NCBI GenBank assembly: GCA_903874975.1
Contig: CAIQUL010000194.1
Coordinates: 1 to 64,000, forward strand
Length of the DNA stretch: 64,000 bases
Source: an uncultured Chthoniobacter sp.
GTDB lineage: Bacteria; Verrucomicrobiota; Verrucomicrobiia; Chthoniobacterales; Chthoniobacteraceae
Reading direction: 5' to 3'
Made by a program: the position numbers and the translations under genes. The notes beneath the pieces are model-generated. The model was not told where the DNA came from. It searched no databases and worked only from the letters and a program-made list of their open reading frames with translations. Positions 13,431-19,689 of the stretch are shown here, one piece after another. Every line of letters starts with the position of its first letter. Position 1 is the stretch's first letter.

Positions 13431-13495
13431 GGTTACTGGCTGGCAGTGGCCGGACCTCGCGCACCGCCCCGCAGGACGTGAGCTGAGCTGCGACA

Positions 13496-14518
13496 CTACC
13501 CCACTGCACGCACGCGCAGGTCGCGGAGCGCGCAGAGCCCGTTTGCCTCCACGCCGCGGAGGGCGCGCGCACCGCTGGTCCGCTTCGGCCCGAAATGCTC
13601 GCGCCGGGCGGTGAAGACTTCGTTCACGAAAGTCTTCGTTCCCAGCGCCAGGCCATCGGCAAAGTAACGCACCCGGCAGCGCAGCATCTGCCAGCGGGCG
13701 AGCCGACCTTTCGCGGCCAGCACCGCGTCCACTTCCTCCGGCTTTAACCCGCGCCGCAGCGCCTGCCCGTCTTCGTCCAATCCCGTCTCCTCGCCCCGGC
13801 CAAAGAGCAGCAGCCGATACTCCGGCAGGATCGCCTTGACCGCCACGGCAGAACCCCGCGCGGCGGTGGCCACGATGCCCAGCCCGGTGCGCGCCGCTTT
13901 CACCCCGGCCACGGCCGCCGCGTAGCCGCACCAGCGGTAGTCCTTCGGATCGCCGACGAGGCCAGCGCGCACCGGGTTCAGGTCGATGTAAGCCGCCATG
14001 GTCGCCAGCGCATTACCCGCGCCTTCCACCAGCACACTCTTGAAGCGCTCCTCCCACAGCGTCCCCTTGCGCCGGTGGGTGCGGTTGAACCATTGGGTAA
14101 AGCGCTGCTTGAGCAGTTTCATAAATGCGCTCACGTCCCACATCCGCGCAAAGAAGCTCTCCCGCAGCGCCTCTGCCTCCGCCTGGGCACCCTCCGCGCG
14201 GAAGTATTCCAGCCGCTGGCGGATGGTTCCCGCGCCGCCGCCCTCGCCATAAACTTCTGTTATCAGGGCGAGCAGAGCAGCGTCACCGGGCAACTCGGTG
14301 GGCCGCTGCGGCACTTCCACGAGGACGTGGAAGTGGTTGCTCATCACGCAATAGGTGACCACCCGCACTCCGCAGAAGCGCTCGTAGAGCCGCATGAACT
14401 CGATGAACTGCTCCTTCTCCTCCGGCCCAAAGACGAACTGCCGGTCCACGACCCGCGAGATGCAGTGGTAGTAGGCGAGCGGATGTTCCGGCGGGGCTTT
14501 GAAACGGGGACGGCGCAT
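13496..14518 (-). mobile_element. REP-associated tyrosine transposase (RAYT, Y1/IS200-like)
   Basis: The gene encodes a 340-residue HUH-superfamily single-strand transposase domesticated to act on REP sequences. The N-terminus YYHCISRVVDRQFVF, the metal-binding MSNHFHVLVE (HFH pair, about residues 80-89), GTLWEERFKSVLVE and YIDLNPVRAGLV are the diagnostic RAYT motifs. A C-terminal extension carries a helical region (LKPEEVDAVLAAKGRLARW). The frame is intact. Just upstream of its start are two tandem copies of GACCTGTCCCTTTATTTT, and two further copies lie within 5 kb, so this enzyme is a good candidate for spreading that motif. Confidence 0.9.
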
Positions 14519-14573
14519 GGCGTGGGATGAAAAAGCAGGACGGCGGGGCGGTCAACAGCTTTCTTTTATAAAT

Positions 14574-14591
14574 GACCTGTCCCTTTATTTT
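14574..14591 (+). repeat. REP-like 18-mer, copy 1
   Basis: GACCTGTCCCTTTATTTT lies 55 bp upstream of the RAYT start. Further copies are at 14595, 17908 and (inverted) 19415. The T-rich 3' half stands out in GC-rich surroundings. Confidence 0.8.
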
Positions 14592-14594
14592 AGC

Positions 14595-14612
14595 GACCTG
14601 TCCCTTTATTTT
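14595..14612 (+). repeat. REP-like 18-mer, copy 2
   Basis: This is a perfect tandem copy of the 18-mer at 14574, separated by 3 bp. The next base begins the surviving part of a truncated response regulator, so the repeat marks the break point. Confidence 0.8.
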
Positions 14613-14882
14613 GCGGTGCAGAGCGCCCTCAGCTACCGGCCGGATCTGATCATCCTCGACTACGTCATGCCGGTGATGGACGGCGGCGACGTGGTGTCCA
14701 AATTGCAGGAGAATTCCTTCCTCCGAACCATCCCGGTGGTGATGGTAACCGCCCTCGTCTCCAATCGTGAGATGGGCTCCCAAGGCAGCGTCCACGCCGG
14801 CGGCCAACTCATGCTCGCCAAACCCATCAGTTTCCCCAATCTCCTGCGCTCCATCGAGGCGCAGTTTGCGGAGGCCAGCTAA
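14613..14882 (+). pseudogene. C-terminal part of a response regulator receiver domain
   Basis: About 89 residues of a CheY-like receiver domain remain: PDLIILDYVMPVMDGGDVVS with the phospho-acceptor Asp, then IPVVMVTALVS (the conserved Thr) and LAKPISFPNLL (the conserved Lys-Pro). The first strand-helix unit with the acidic pocket is gone. The reading begins directly after the repeat at 14595-14612. It cannot be phosphorylated properly and has no start codon of its own. The missing 5' part was presumably lost when the REP/RAYT segment arrived or recombined. Confidence 0.8.
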
Positions 14883-14910
14883 AGCGGGGGCGGGGTGGCT
14901 TCCGGGGAGC

Positions 14911-14960
14911 GCGCTCATCCTGAGCGCTGGTCGCGGCATTCTGCCGCGACGGACTTTCCT
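14911..14960 (+). repeat. REP element, copy A of an inverted pair
   Basis: The element starts GCGCTCATCCTGAGCGCTGG and contains the hairpin CGCGGCATTCTGCCGCG. A matching element lies inverted at 15000-15053. The two differ in their hairpin stems by paired changes that keep the stem. Confidence 0.7.
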
Positions 14961-14999
14961 GCCGCGCCGCATCCGGGACCAGCCGTCCATGCCGGGAAA

Positions 15000-15053
15000 G
15001 GTCATGGAAGTGCGTTTCGGCGGAACGCTGAAACAAGCGCCCAGGATGAGCGC
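15000..15053 (-). repeat. REP element, copy B (inverted)
   Basis: Read on the minus strand it starts GCGCTCATCCTGGGCGCTTG and contains TTTCAGCGTTCCGCCGAAA, a hairpin of different sequence from copy A but at the same place. It ends 5 bp from the stop of the GT39 gene, so it may also act as a transcript end. Confidence 0.7.
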
Positions 15054-15057
15054 GTCC

Positions 15058-16539
15058 CTATTTCCTCGCGGCTTCAGCGGCGCGGTAGTTTTCCACGACT
15101 CGGGTGAAATACGGACGCACCTTCCGTCCTCCGCGTTCCACCCAATGCTCTTCAATTTCGCCGACCCGGCCGGCCCGCTCGCGGATGCGGCGCCGGTCCA
15201 GATCGCTGCGGGTAAAGCTGACCAGCAGGAGAGTCGCGCCCTCCAGGTCGCGCGGCGGGAACCAGAACTCATACATCAGCGCGCGCCCGCCGAAGAGATG
15301 CGCCCCGGTGGTTTCGCGGACGGCCTGGCGCGGCCGCGAGTGGTAAAACGCGGCTTCGCTGGCGATGAAGTTTTTGTCCAGAGCCACGAGCAAGACGCGG
15401 TCGTCCGCCGGCGGAGGAATGGCGGCCCGGCGCGCCTCGATCGCCCGGCCCATCTCGGACCAGCCGACGGGCAATAGCTCCATGTTTGGCGCGTAGCCGA
15501 GGCCGGGCAGACCGAAAGTGAGATAAGTCAAAAACGTCGCGTGAACGACCACCAGCAGCGCAATCGTGGCGACCCACGCGCGACGGAGCCCGCCCGCGGG
15601 CTGATCGGCGAGGGCGACTAGGCTGGCGGCCACGGCGGGAATCACGGCCAGCCAGAGCGGGCCGGTCCAGTTCAGCTTCACGCGGTGCGTGAGGCTAAAA
15701 AGCAGGAAGACGGCAAGCGGGGCGAGGGTGTAGATGCGCGCGAACCAGCGGCGGCGCAGGTCATCGGACGGCGCCCCGCGCAGCGCGCGCCAGACCAGCA
15801 GCATGAGGACCGGCGTGAGCAGGACGAGGATCGAGGCGAGCAACTCATGCGTGGAAAAGCGCCGCGCCACGGCGACGCGATCGGCACTCTGAAAGGCAAA
15901 GGAAGCCCACTGGTGCCGCGCATTCCAAATGATGACCGGCGAGAAAATGACGATGGCCAAAAGGACCGCCCCATACGGCGCGGGATGCCGCCACCAGCGG
16001 CGCGCGCGGGCGTCCACCGTGATGAAGATCAGCGTCGCGGGACCGAGCAGGGCGATGGTGTATTTCGAGAGCATCCCGAGGCCGAGACAAACGCCCAGAC
16101 CCAGCCAGGCGCCGGCCTTTTCCTGCAGCAGGGCGCGCGCGAGAAAATAGAGCGCCCCGGCCCAGCACGCGGTGAGCGGGGCGTCGGGCGTGATCATGAA
16201 ACCGGTGAGAAAAAAGAACGGCAGCAACTGCACGAGCAGGACGGCCATCCAGCCGGCGCGGGCATCGAAGAGCAGCGTGGTGAGGCGAAAGGTGAAGAAC
16301 GCGGTGACCAGCGAGCAGAGCACCACGCCGAGGCGCACGCCGAATTCGCTGTCGCCGAAAAGCGCGGTGCCCGCATGGATCAGCCAGGCGACCATCGGCG
16401 GGTGATCGAGATAGCCGGTGTCGAGATGCGCGGCGTAGTTCCAGTAGTAGGCTTCCTCCGGAAAAAGGTCAGGCTGGCCGAGGAAGGCGACGCGCAGCAG
16501 AAACAGCGCGACGGTCAGGACGAGAACGCCGCGCTTCAA
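15058..16539 (-). CDS. GT39-family membrane glycosyltransferase (ArnT/PMT-like)
   Basis: This 493-residue polytopic protein has the GT-C fold layout: the first loop carries the catalytic acidic motif FPEEAYYWNYAAHLDTGYLD (residues ~26-45) followed by HPP, then about ten hydrophobic helices and a soluble C-terminal domain. Such enzymes move a sugar from a polyprenyl-phosphate donor to lipid or protein on the periplasmic side. Its start overlaps the stop of the upstream GT9 gene by 4 nt (ATGA), so the two are translationally coupled. The ArnC-like GT2 at 60771 could in principle supply a polyprenyl-linked donor, but that link is inference. Confidence 0.88.
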   Translation of the reverse strand: MKRGVLVLTVALFLLRVAFLGQPDLFPEEAYYWNYAAHLDTGYLDHPPMVAWLIHAGTALFGDSEFGVRLGVVLCSLVTAFFTFRLTTLLFDARAGWMAVLLVQLLPFFFLTGFMITPDAPLTACWAGALYFLARALLQEKAGAWLGLGVCLGLGMLSKYTIALLGPATLIFITVDARARRWWRHPAPYGAVLLAIVIFSPVIIWNARHQWASFAFQSADRVAVARRFSTHELLASILVLLTPVLMLLVWRALRGAPSDDLRRRWFARIYTLAPLAVFLLFSLTHRVKLNWTGPLWLAVIPAVAASLVALADQPAGGLRRAWVATIALLVVVHATFLTYLTFGLPGLGYAPNMELLPVGWSEMGRAIEARRAAIPPPADDRVLLVALDKNFIASEAAFYHSRPRQAVRETTGAHLFGGRALMYEFWFPPRDLEGATLLLVSFTRSDLDRRRIRERAGRVGEIEEHWVERGGRKVRPYFTRVVENYRAAEAARK

Positions 16540-17768
16540 GCGGCCTGGACTCCCGATTGGCGACCGAGGTAGCTCTTGCAGACTGCCGCGAAAGTCTGGT
16601 CCGGCGTGATGCGCTGCATGCAGACGTTATCCCGGCAGACGGACTGCCGGTTGTTCAGCGCGCTGACACATGGGCTGCACGCGAGCCCGGCCCACAGCGC
16701 CGTATTGCGGGGCGTGAGCGCCGCGAAGAGCAGCGGCGTCTCCGGTCCGAAAAGCGTCACCGTGTGGATCGGCGTGAGCGCCGCGAAATGCGCGGGTCCG
16801 CTGTCATTCGTCACCAGCACCTCGGCCAGGCCGTAGAGCACGAGGAGCTGACGCAGCGTCGTCTCCCCCGCGAGCGAGAAGCAGCGCGGCGAGTTCACGC
16901 GGGCGACCATTTCCCGGGCTTTCGCGGCTTCATTTTTGGCGCCCGTAAAGGCGATGAACACCTCCGGAAAACGCACCAGCAAACGCTGCGCGACCTCGAG
17001 GTAACTCTCCAGACTCCAGCGCCGCAGCGGGATCAGGTCGCTCGCATTCGCATTGAGCAGGATGAGCGGCGGCGTGAGGGGCTGCCCGGTGAAACGCGCG
17101 AGCTGCTCCCGCACTTCGCGAATCTCCGCCGGTGCCGCGGAGAAAATCGGGAGCGGGTCCGGCGCGCTGTCCGGCGTCAGGTCGAAACGCGGGAGGCTCT
17201 CGGGATTCGCCTCCAGCGCGCTGACCAGCGACGCGAAGGTTTGCATGGTATGAAGGTGCGGATTGTAACGCACCCGGTGCGTCATCAGGTTGCCGCGATA
17301 CGGCCCTTCGCCGAACCACGCGTGAAAACCCACACGCCGCGCCGCGCCGCTCGCCCAAGTCAGCAGCGCCGAGGAGCGCGCGAAAAATTCCAGATCAATC
17401 GCCGCATCCAGCCGCAGCCGGCGCAGCCGCGAGAGCACCACGGGCACCGCCCGCAGCAGACTGAAGAGGCTGTCGTGGGGCAAGGTGATGACATTCTCCG
17501 CCGGGATGACGCCCAGCGCATCGACGATGAACCGGTTGTCCTCAAAGACCGCCATGAAAACCCGTTCGCGCCCCACCCGCCGCACCGCATCCTGGAGCGC
17601 GCGATGGGCGAGCACCGTCGAGCCTTGCTCCGCGAGCTTCACAAAAAGGATCGAGCGCACCGGACCGGCGGGTGGGCGTCGCGGAAACAGCGCGCGCACC
17701 GCGGTCACGGCGAAGCACAGCGGGACGCCCAGCCAGCGGTCGAGCTGCATCATTTTCTGCACGTTCAT
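16536..17768 (-). CDS. GT9-family glycosyltransferase (heptosyltransferase-like)
   Basis: The 410-residue protein has the two-domain GT-B fold of ADP-heptose:LPS heptosyltransferases. Visible signatures are SILFVKLAEQGSTVLAHRAL near the N-terminus (the family's usual 'R.D.IGD' is replaced), VTNDSGPAHFAALTPIHTV with LFGPETPLLFA in the C-terminal domain, and a Cys-rich tail CSPCVSALNNRQSVCRDNVC typical of a GT9 subgroup. It probably adds a heptose or related sugar to a core oligosaccharide. It is coupled with the downstream GT39 gene. Confidence 0.88.
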   Translation of the reverse strand: MNVQKMMQLDRWLGVPLCFAVTAVRALFPRRPPAGPVRSILFVKLAEQGSTVLAHRALQDAVRRVGRERVFMAVFEDNRFIVDALGVIPAENVITLPHDSLFSLLRAVPVVLSRLRRLRLDAAIDLEFFARSSALLTWASGAARRVGFHAWFGEGPYRGNLMTHRVRYNPHLHTMQTFASLVSALEANPESLPRFDLTPDSAPDPLPIFSAAPAEIREVREQLARFTGQPLTPPLILLNANASDLIPLRRWSLESYLEVAQRLLVRFPEVFIAFTGAKNEAAKAREMVARVNSPRCFSLAGETTLRQLLVLYGLAEVLVTNDSGPAHFAALTPIHTVTLFGPETPLLFAALTPRNTALWAGLACSPCVSALNNRQSVCRDNVCMQRITPDQTFAAVCKSYLGRQSGVQAA

Positions 17769-17907
17769 CGGAGGAAGTGGGTAGAGATCAAAGTTTTGGA
17801 AAGAGGGGTCAGGGGTCAGCGTTTGCGCGGAGCACCCATCGTTAAAGGGGTTTCGAGATTAGAGGTGGTGGTTGGCGGTGGCGACGAATTTTCCTGCGTC
17901 GATAATG

Positions 17908-17925
17908 GACCTGTCCCTTTATTTT
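17908..17925 (+). repeat. REP-like 18-mer, copy 3
   Basis: This is a perfect copy of GACCTGTCCCTTTATTTT. As at copy 2, a headless coding remnant starts on the next base. Confidence 0.8.
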
Positions 17926-18036
17926 GTCACCGTGCGCTCGGTGAAGTTCATCCGCTGGTTGCGGGTGCAACTCTATCTCCAGCCTCACCACGAGCCTGCC
18001 ATCGCCGCCCTGCGCCAGTTATATGCGGTTTTGTAA
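17926..18036 (+). pseudogene. C-terminal fragment of an unidentified protein
   Basis: An open frame without a plausible start reads VTVRSVKFIRWLRVQLYLQP and on to AIAALRQLYAVL, then stops. The amphipathic ending resembles the tail of a helical-repeat protein, but this is weak. Its importance is its position: it begins exactly where repeat copy 3 ends, like the response regulator fragment at 14613. Confidence 0.4.
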
Positions 18037-18058
18037 GGGGGATTTTGGACACCGTTGT

Positions 18059-18208
18059 TTACAAAACTCCAAATTTCTGTCGGTATTTAGGCAAACTCGC
18101 ACAGCCTCCGATCATTCGCCCGCATTCCTCCAGCCCTTTCGCGCTGAAGAGGAACTGGCGGTTGCTGATCAGGTTCCTGTCCATGCACAGCCGCACAAGC
18201 CAGCGCAT
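18059..18208 (-). pseudogene. C-terminal fragment of a four-helix-bundle (S23/Avd-like) protein
   Basis: The 49-residue frame reads MRWLVRLCMDRNLISNRQFL and then LEECGRMIGG. The pattern R-L-x-x-D-x-x-x-I-S-x-x-Q-F/Y-x-x-x-x-x-x-L-E/D-E-x-G-R-M-I/L-G-G matches the last two helices of the four-helix-bundle family that includes Avd of diversity-generating retroelements and the 23S intervening-sequence protein. The first two helices are missing, though the frame stays open upstream without homology. It lies about 60 bp downstream of the FGE/PEP-CTERM gene on the same strand. No reverse transcriptase is visible. Confidence 0.5.
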
Positions 18209-18270
18209 TATTTTGATCTTGCGATTTTGAAAAGGAAAAGAGCAAAGAGCTAAAGGATTAAGGGAAGAAA

Positions 18271-19239
18271 TCAGCGTCTTCTTTTGGTTACCACGCCTAA
18301 TGCGCCGATGAGAGTCAACAGTAGTGCGGACGGCTCAGGAACAGCAACCACAGGAACAGCTGCGACGCGGAACCCCACAGTGGAGTACTCTGTCGTCGGG
18401 CTGGCGCCTTGGCGGAGATCCGCGGAGTGGGCGCCGGAAGTGCCCCAGGCGCCGCCGCGGAGTACCCGGTTCTCGCCAGCCGATTCGTTCGGAGCCATAA
18501 AACTGGATTCAGCCCATTCAAATACGTTCCCAGTCTGCGCCATCGTGCCGTAAGCACTCAGCCCGCCCGCGTTGGTGATTTCCGCCGGGCCGGCCTGTCC
18601 AGCATAAACCGCCGTGCCGCTCGCTGTCCACCCGCTCCCCATGGCCACCGCGACTGGGAACGTATCGCTGCCGGTCGCAAAGTCCCAGTAACCTCCTTGG
18701 AAGCCAGAGGCATTTGCACTACCGCTCTTGGTCGGATCGTAGTACGCCGCCTTATACCACTCGTCCTCGCTTGGCAGAACGTAATGGGCATTAGAATTGC
18801 GGAACGGATTCGCCGCGTTGTAGCCAGCATCTCCTGGCTCCCAGAGCGCGATGTTTTCGTTGAAGCCCGCAGTGTCAAATTGGTAAGCCGCGCTGAAACC
18901 CTTGCTCGTATTCAGCCAGTTCACAAAACGCGCCGCTTCGTTCCAACTGATGCTCGTGGCAGGGCTGTACACCGTGTGGATTTCAAAAGACATATCATTC
19001 ATCGTCAGTGTCGGACCACCACTCAGCGTATTGTAGGCATTGATCATTTCTCGGCTCACCTCGTGCACACCCATGCGGTAGGTGTAGCCCACGGAGCCAT
19101 AGGTGGTGTTATCCGCCGCGTTCCCGGCTGCACCGATCTCAATGAAGTCCATGGTGAAGGTGCTCGCCCCACTGCCGAAGGTATCGGCATGGGCGGCGGC
19201 GAGCGGAAGAAATAGGATGGAGAGGATGCGTAATTTCAT
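18271..19239 (-). CDS. FGE-sulfatase (SUMF1) domain protein with PEP-CTERM anchor
   Basis: The 322-residue secreted protein has a signal peptide (ILSILFLPLAAAHA), a formylglycine-generating-enzyme fold domain and a C-terminal PEP-CTERM signal (VPEPSALLLTLIGALGVVTK then RRR). The domain shows YRMGVHEVSREM, WNEAARFVNWLN, YVLPSEDEWYKAAYYDP, AYGTMAQTGNVFEW and RVLRGGAWG in family order. The paired catalytic cysteines of true formylglycine generators are not evident, so a binding role is more likely than catalysis. The PEP-CTERM tail implies processing by an exosortase encoded elsewhere. A broken paralogue lies at 9820-10277. Confidence 0.9.
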   Translation of the reverse strand: MKLRILSILFLPLAAAHADTFGSGASTFTMDFIEIGAAGNAADNTTYGSVGYTYRMGVHEVSREMINAYNTLSGGPTLTMNDMSFEIHTVYSPATSISWNEAARFVNWLNTSKGFSAAYQFDTAGFNENIALWEPGDAGYNAANPFRNSNAHYVLPSEDEWYKAAYYDPTKSGSANASGFQGGYWDFATGSDTFPVAVAMGSGWTASGTAVYAGQAGPAEITNAGGLSAYGTMAQTGNVFEWAESSFMAPNESAGENRVLRGGAWGTSGAHSADLRQGASPTTEYSTVGFRVAAVPVVAVPEPSALLLTLIGALGVVTKRRR

Positions 19240-19414
19240 TTGTTAACAAAAGAGCAATTCACAATCCGGATGGCAAGGGATTTATCGTGTATCTGGGGTC
19301 AGGTGCAGGGCGGTAGCCCAGAAATCTTATCGGATCGGTATTCATTGGATTTTTGAGAAATTGCTAAACAATGGCCTCAGTTTTGGCAGTTTTAGTCTGC
19401 CATGGAAACTTAAG
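19240..19414. other. AT-rich intergenic spacer
   Basis: This 175-bp region upstream of the FGE/PEP-CTERM gene is clearly AT-richer than the surroundings and presumably holds its promoter. No further feature was recognised before repeat copy 4. Confidence 0.5.
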
Positions 19415-19432
19415 AAAATAAAGGGACAGGTT
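19415..19432 (-). repeat. REP-like 18-mer, copy 4 (inverted)
   Basis: The plus strand reads AAAATAAAGGGACAGGTT, the reverse complement of the repeat with one changed end base (AACCTGTCCCTTTATTTT). It lies 2 bp beyond the stop codon that truncates the spermidine-synthase-like fragment. Confidence 0.8.
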
Positions 19433-19434
19433 CT

Positions 19435-19689
19435 TTATCGCCCTACTTGTTGCAGCACCTGCTTTAGAGTGAAGCCAAGACCGAGCCCGCCAATGAGAAT
19501 GCGTGGTGCCCGATGGCCTTTGAGGTGCTGACAGCCCAGATCCGCGAGCAGGAACTCGGAACTGGTGGCCGTCGTGCTCATGAGTTGGCGGCCGTTGTGT
19601 TTGAGGAAAAATTCTCCATCATGCTCCTGCAGACTCAGGATGGATCCATCCGGGCTGCGAACCTGCCCTAAAGTAATGTTGGGTTTCAC
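19435..19689 (-). pseudogene. N-terminal fragment of a spermidine-synthase-like methyltransferase-fold protein
   Basis: The 84-residue frame has the N-terminal strands of the spermine/spermidine synthase family (GQVRSPDGSILSLQEHDGEF, LLADLGC) and the first cofactor loop RILIGGLGLGFTLKQVL. It stops with GR just past the GxGxG loop, where a full-length protein would continue for some 130-200 residues. The stop codon is created at the junction with REP-like copy 4. The fragment cannot be catalytic. Confidence 0.75.

Follow-up and report, generated by a model that had tools for sequence, protein, structure and literature searches.

The 18-nucleotide motif that recurs around a RAYT gene in the analysed window (the whole stretch of 64,000 nucleotides from an uncultured Chthoniobacter sp.) probably represents, at roughly three chances in four as judged from sequence comparison, the recognition sequence at the left terminus of a mobile element that encodes a RAYT; this element would consist of the left end, a leader of about 50 bp and a reading frame extending to the 3' end. 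The fixed spacing between motif and start codon, in combination with a homology between paralogs that is bounded by motif and stop codon, points to the motif as the left terminus of an autonomous element.

The motif and its RAYT gene

The window RAYT (Table 1) is a Y1/HUH transposase displaying the HuH and Y...NP signatures that characterize RAYT (TnpAREP) proteins, and the catalytic histidines and the tyrosine are invariant in an alignment of 16 members. The NCBIfam profile REP_Tyr_transpos is matched with its C-terminal half only and with 60.4 bits, below the cut-off of 80 bits. The long insertion between HuH and tyrosine may split the domain.

On the plus strand, the exact 18-mer is found at 14574–14591 (copy 1), 14595–14612 (copy 2) and 17908–17925 (copy 3). 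Copy 4 is inverted (19415–19432) and has A instead of G at position 1, resulting in a 17/18 match. The sequence-only reading of this DNA, which had listed four copies of the 18-mer within 5 kb, was therefore correct in the positions but not in the exactness of the last copy. Similarly, a distance of 55 bp to the RAYT start had been given for copies 1 and 2. It holds for copy 1, measured from the ATG at 14518, whereas copy 2, stacked 21 bp apart from copy 1, lies at 76 bp. In the orientation of the RAYT gene, the motif reads AAAATAAAGGGACAGGTC. Copies 3 and 4 constitute an inverted 26-nt pair and are alike, together with a copy on contig C185 of the same genome, over about 26 nt ([C/T]GATAA...ACCTGTCCCTT[T/G]ATTTT), while the outer flanks are unrelated. 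Situated between copies 3 and 4 on the minus strand (18271–19239) is a gene for an FGE-sulfatase-domain protein with a PEP-CTERM sorting signal.

Allowing up to three mismatches, 0.02 copies of the 18-mer are expected by chance per 64 kb (shuffles). Elsewhere in the 3.86-Mb genome only two weaker copies exist, on C185 (1 mismatch) and C293 (2 mismatches), and the reversed pattern, used as a control, gave no match in the rest of the genome. The motif is thus concentrated around one RAYT gene. Of the three closest solo copies in the genome, two are found less than 5 kb from it, similar to the local build-up of REPs near rayt genes described by Nunvar 2010 (PMC2817692).

Table 1. Coordinates of the element, its left-end units and the adjoining gene remnants in the window
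Feature	Position	Strand	Evidence
Right end of element	13482..13501	-	homology with the C169 copy of the same genome stops within ~15 bp of the stop codon
RAYT (Y1/HUH transposase) gene, 340 aa, HFH at residues 62-64, YIDLNP from residue 177	13496..14518	-	Pfam Y1_Tnp, 9.7e-13
55-bp leader, left-end motif to RAYT start codon	14519..14573	-	motif-ATG spacing conserved in relatives
Left end of RAYT element (copy 1), AAAATAAAGGGACAGGTCATTTAT, weak hairpin ATAAA...TTTAT	14568..14591	-	5' homology boundary between copies; DNA fold -0.9 kcal/mol
Second left-end piece (copy 2), stacked, 21 nt, abuts host gene	14592..14612	-	
Headless response-regulator remnant, host side of left-end stack	14613..14882	+	PF00072 positions 36-110 of 111
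Solo left-end unit (copy 3), ~26 nt	17900..17925	-	similarity to copy 4 and the C185 copy extends past the 18-mer
Last 36 codons of a multi-copy transposase plus terminal sequence GGACACCGTTG	17926..18060	+	Pfam DDE_Tnp_1
Solo left-end unit (copy 4), opposite orientation to copy 3, with hairpin ATAAAG...CTTTAT	19415..19440	+	
Tail-less spermidine-synthase-like remnant, 84 aa	19435..19689	-	N-terminal third of homologs

RAYT homologs were collected from the order (within Verrucomicrobiota), the best ones sharing 39–63% identity. Within 130 nt upstream of the RAYT start, an exact GGGACAG is present in 27 of 39 cases, with 0.4 expected from mononucleotide shuffles, and in 23 of these 27 genes it is located 51–65 nt from the ATG. 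In some relatives the upstream motif reads GGGGACAG. RAYT paralogs of the same genome can be aligned from the motif as far as the region of the stop codon, where they diverge, with an extension of up to about 80 bp past the stop in genome G022. In G076, four element copies share 1.1 kb, and the homology is confined to the span from motif to stop between independent flanks. The stop codons of these copies (TGA, TAA, TAG and TAA) are located directly at the element junction. The reading frame of the element thus seems to extend right up to the 3' terminus, and target DNA may supply the stop. The anatomy of the mobile unit is accordingly a motif at the 5' terminus, a leader of about 50 bp and a RAYT reading frame of 340 aa. 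That no partner motif was identified at the right end counts against this reading, as do the weak left-end hairpin and the missing empty site. All genomes are fragmented assemblies in which full elements are multi-copy, and some flank pairs could therefore be mis-joined. The earlier description of the motif as REP-like and tied to the RAYT gene is confirmed.

Solo and stacked left ends in relatives

Most of the RAYT-carrying relatives tested contain 5–44 left-end copies, often arranged in head-to-tail stacks. Searches with a degenerate pattern yielded 44 copies in G022, 42 in G007, 26 in G010 and 13 each in G009 and G076, all of which are RAYT-rich, and only 0–2 in G023, G036 and G041; the reversed-pattern control gave 0–4. 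Dispersed left-end copies track RAYT carriage, with the exception of G031, which has none matching the degenerate pattern and whose RAYTs carry other motif variants. Since an order-wide search with a 17-mer returned few near copies, the exact motif is regarded as lineage-specific, with the GGGACAG core shared across the order. Exact 18-mers outside Verrucomicrobiota are mostly chance matches inside coding genes.

The left-end pieces are characterized by a fixed 5' end and a variable 3' end. In the head-to-tail arrays of G007, units of 18 to 195 nt keep their 5' end, and several arrays finish in a full RAYT leader and start. Among Verrucomicrobiota MAGs with the exact 18-mer, pieces stop after about 35 nt (L022), 45 nt (L018) or 150 nt (L011), and in L008, L020, L023 and L025 the 18-mer continues into a RAYT.

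Several individual loci display unusual arrangements. Two clusters in G007, L187 (C5:91825–92560) and L188 (on C7), comprise nine head-to-tail left ends each, and in L187 the final one is followed by the start of a RAYT gene. In L190 (G022, C24:34103–34413), eight direct left-end motifs are mostly exactly 36 bp apart, a multiple of 3, which looks as if the left end had turned into a translatable tandem repeat. In L049, the RAYT gene is followed at a distance of about 40 bp (after position 2499) by an inverted and doubled left-end motif, a TIRtron-like arrangement that is absent in the window. On C185 of the window's own genome (G000, locus L088, 782–1405), a TacA1-like antitoxin gene (Pfam TacA1 1–75 of 80) runs at its 3' end into a stacked solo left end, within which its stop codon falls. 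Beyond this left end lies a PEP-CTERM gene, and no toxin gene was recognised there.

Broken genes and the origin of short left ends

At all three window sites the flanks are non-contiguous. As the sequence-only reading had stated, copy 2 ends one base before a headless response-regulator fragment, a receiver domain without the first 35 profile positions. No response regulator was found near the homologs of the PMT_2 gene (15058–16539) in relatives. Copy 3 also ends one base before a headless fragment. This fragment had been called unknown and can now be assigned to the C-terminus of a DDE_Tnp_1 transposase, with a coding part of 17926–18036. The location of copy 4, 2 bp past a tail-less spermidine-synthase-like fragment, was likewise recovered. 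This remnant, which matches only the N-terminal third of its homologs, is 65–73% identical to the better matches, and its stop codon is supplied by the copy-4 left-end unit. Such proteins occur in 27 of 40 genomes of the family; the missing half is absent from the window and, paralogs apart, from the whole genome.

Among 22 elements with examined flanks, a gene remnant is found at or near the left end in five: the window, L044 (sulfatase, Pfam up to 262 of 301), L045 (dehydrogenase, Pfam 2–41 of 129), L074 (IS30-like N-terminal helix-turn-helix) and L048 (transposase C-terminus close to the left end). The other gene half was not found on the far side of the element in the window, L044, L045 and L074, the flanking reading frames having been read in L045 and L074. 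Because the genes do not continue on the far side, more than a simple insertion into a gene is indicated, and an adjacent deletion is allowed. At least five clearly intergenic solo left ends of relatives (L168, L169, L178, L179 and L180) lie between intact-looking genes; at solo sites genes were called without homology, and several pattern matches inside long reading frames may be due to chance.

These observations bear on the earlier proposal that the adjoining gene halves are lost through RAYT activity or through recombination at the motif. As a hotspot of deletion or recombination, the motif would break genes directly, flanking DNA being removed by RAYT nicking or by recombination among dispersed left ends, which would agree with the non-contiguous flanks at the three window sites, with the missing halves of the L044 sulfatase, the L045 dehydrogenase and the L074 IS30 gene, and with the inverted arrangement of copies 3 and 4. 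Several points render such a hotspot doubtful: the intergenic solos beside intact-looking genes, the truncation of the same DDE transposase near the same region without any RAYT motif (C-terminal pieces on other contigs, L134 and L129), and the failure to find a before/after pair among relatives. No empty-site relative was found, including the genus g17 (G060–G063), in which two species carry the element at the same place and the other two differ downstream. The sequence-only reading thus stands in part: remnants accompany 5 of the 22 elements, but solo motifs also occur away from gene breaks, and one gene is truncated in the motif's absence. A deletion is only partly supported, insertion into genes followed by loss of the unselected half represents the simplest account, and the motif is not a proven gene-cutting signal.

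Alternatively, the short left ends could be decay products of full insertions from which random deletions took away the RAYT body along with adjacent DNA. In line with this origin are elements truncated at intermediate lengths (about 150 nt in L011, as well as L018 and L022) and, in the window's own genome, two further copies, a partial one with which contig C169 ends and a degenerate one on C2. It is nevertheless rather improbable, since random deletion hardly generates many same-orientation pieces stacked upstream of intact RAYTs or solos of a near-constant length of about 26 nt. That the pattern merely reflects chance 18-mers or contigs mis-joined at repeats is hardly credible: at least 7 of the 19 exact 18-mers in the genome collection do look like chance matches inside genes, but the expectation for the window is far below the number of copies present, and repeats of 26 nt are shorter than the longer assembly k-mers in common use.

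How REP-like repeats originate and spread from RAYT elements is poorly understood. Here, full elements coexist with truncations at many points, stacks and solos, and every form begins at one sharp 5' boundary. From this, one-sided copying that starts with a nick at the left end is predicted. As Y1/HUH nucleases, RAYTs act on single strands, and the enzyme would nick the left end on single-stranded DNA, with the cut expected just 5' of AAAATAAAGGG. Copying would begin at this nick and halt at varying points, generating fixed 5' and variable 3' ends, and a new piece made at the same nick would be placed 5' of the older one, as in the observed stacks. Existing ends and their vicinity might be the preferred sites for copying or inserting left-end pieces, as is thought for REPs under the action of their RAYTs. 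Three genes of the window would have received, within or beside them, a full element and two pieces of about 26 nt. Once broken, these genes would have lost selection, and their other halves would later have been deleted or rearranged away, possibly with the help of recombination between copies. With little confidence, it is suggested that such one-sided, 5'-anchored copying allows the long RAYTs of Verrucomicrobiota to amplify their own left end, leaving stacks, solos, joined non-adjacent DNA and halved neighbour genes. For genome annotation, the motif's identity as a left end would explain its occurrence at pseudogene edges. A nick beside the REP has been proposed to prime synthesis into the rayt gene, and REPs accumulate near rayt genes in some species (Nunvar 2010, PMC2817692).

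Comparison with known repeat systems

Judged by its motif, the element is closest to the TIRYT/TIRtron group, in which the consensus GGGGWSAS is located upstream of a RAYT-like gene (Di Nocera 2013, PMC3733652). Both systems combine a RAYT-like Y1 transposase with an upstream motif at a roughly fixed distance, and copies are single, dimeric or grouped. Moreover, the consensus resembles [AG]GGGACAG, the window copy AGGGACAG being one base off. In contrast to TIRtrons, the window RAYT gene has no inverted copy downstream, though L049 has one, and the AAAATAAA prefix and the 5'-anchored stacks are undescribed for TIRtrons in the available part of that source.

By its protein features, the element is closest to TnpAY1 subclass 2.3 (Quentin 2018, PMC6006769). 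The length of 340 aa compares with a median of 325, the HuH-to-Y spacing of about 113 aa with a median of 110, and common features include the YxDLNP motif, a TS motif in the tail (KRTSGAR in the window RAYT, the serine not being kept in all homologs) and several divergent copies per genome. Differences to subclass 2.3 are NHFH in place of NHYH, the occurrence of the present element in Verrucomicrobiota, and its left-end repeat, no REP-like sequences being reported for subclass 2.3 (PMC6006769). With the IS200/IS605 family, the element shares the Y1/HUH enzyme and the organization as an autonomous unit with defined ends; however, its RAYT-type protein is longer and carries the Y...NP signature, and no tnpB was seen.

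In the RAYT/REP system, short palindromic repeats follow their cognate RAYT and sometimes accumulate near it (Nunvar 2010, PMC2817692), and here, too, a short repeat stands beside a RAYT gene and is dispersed in the same genome. However, the window units lack a GTAG tag at their ends, in silico folding gives the left end only a weak hairpin (0 to -1.9 kcal/mol; z-scores of about +0.5 to -3.6), and copies are few and mainly arranged in direct stacks. Lacking the tag and a stable palindrome, the element is not filed as a classical REP. In conclusion, the motif and its RAYT gene work like a REP/TIR system and can be seen as a local variation on the known RAYT/REP theme.
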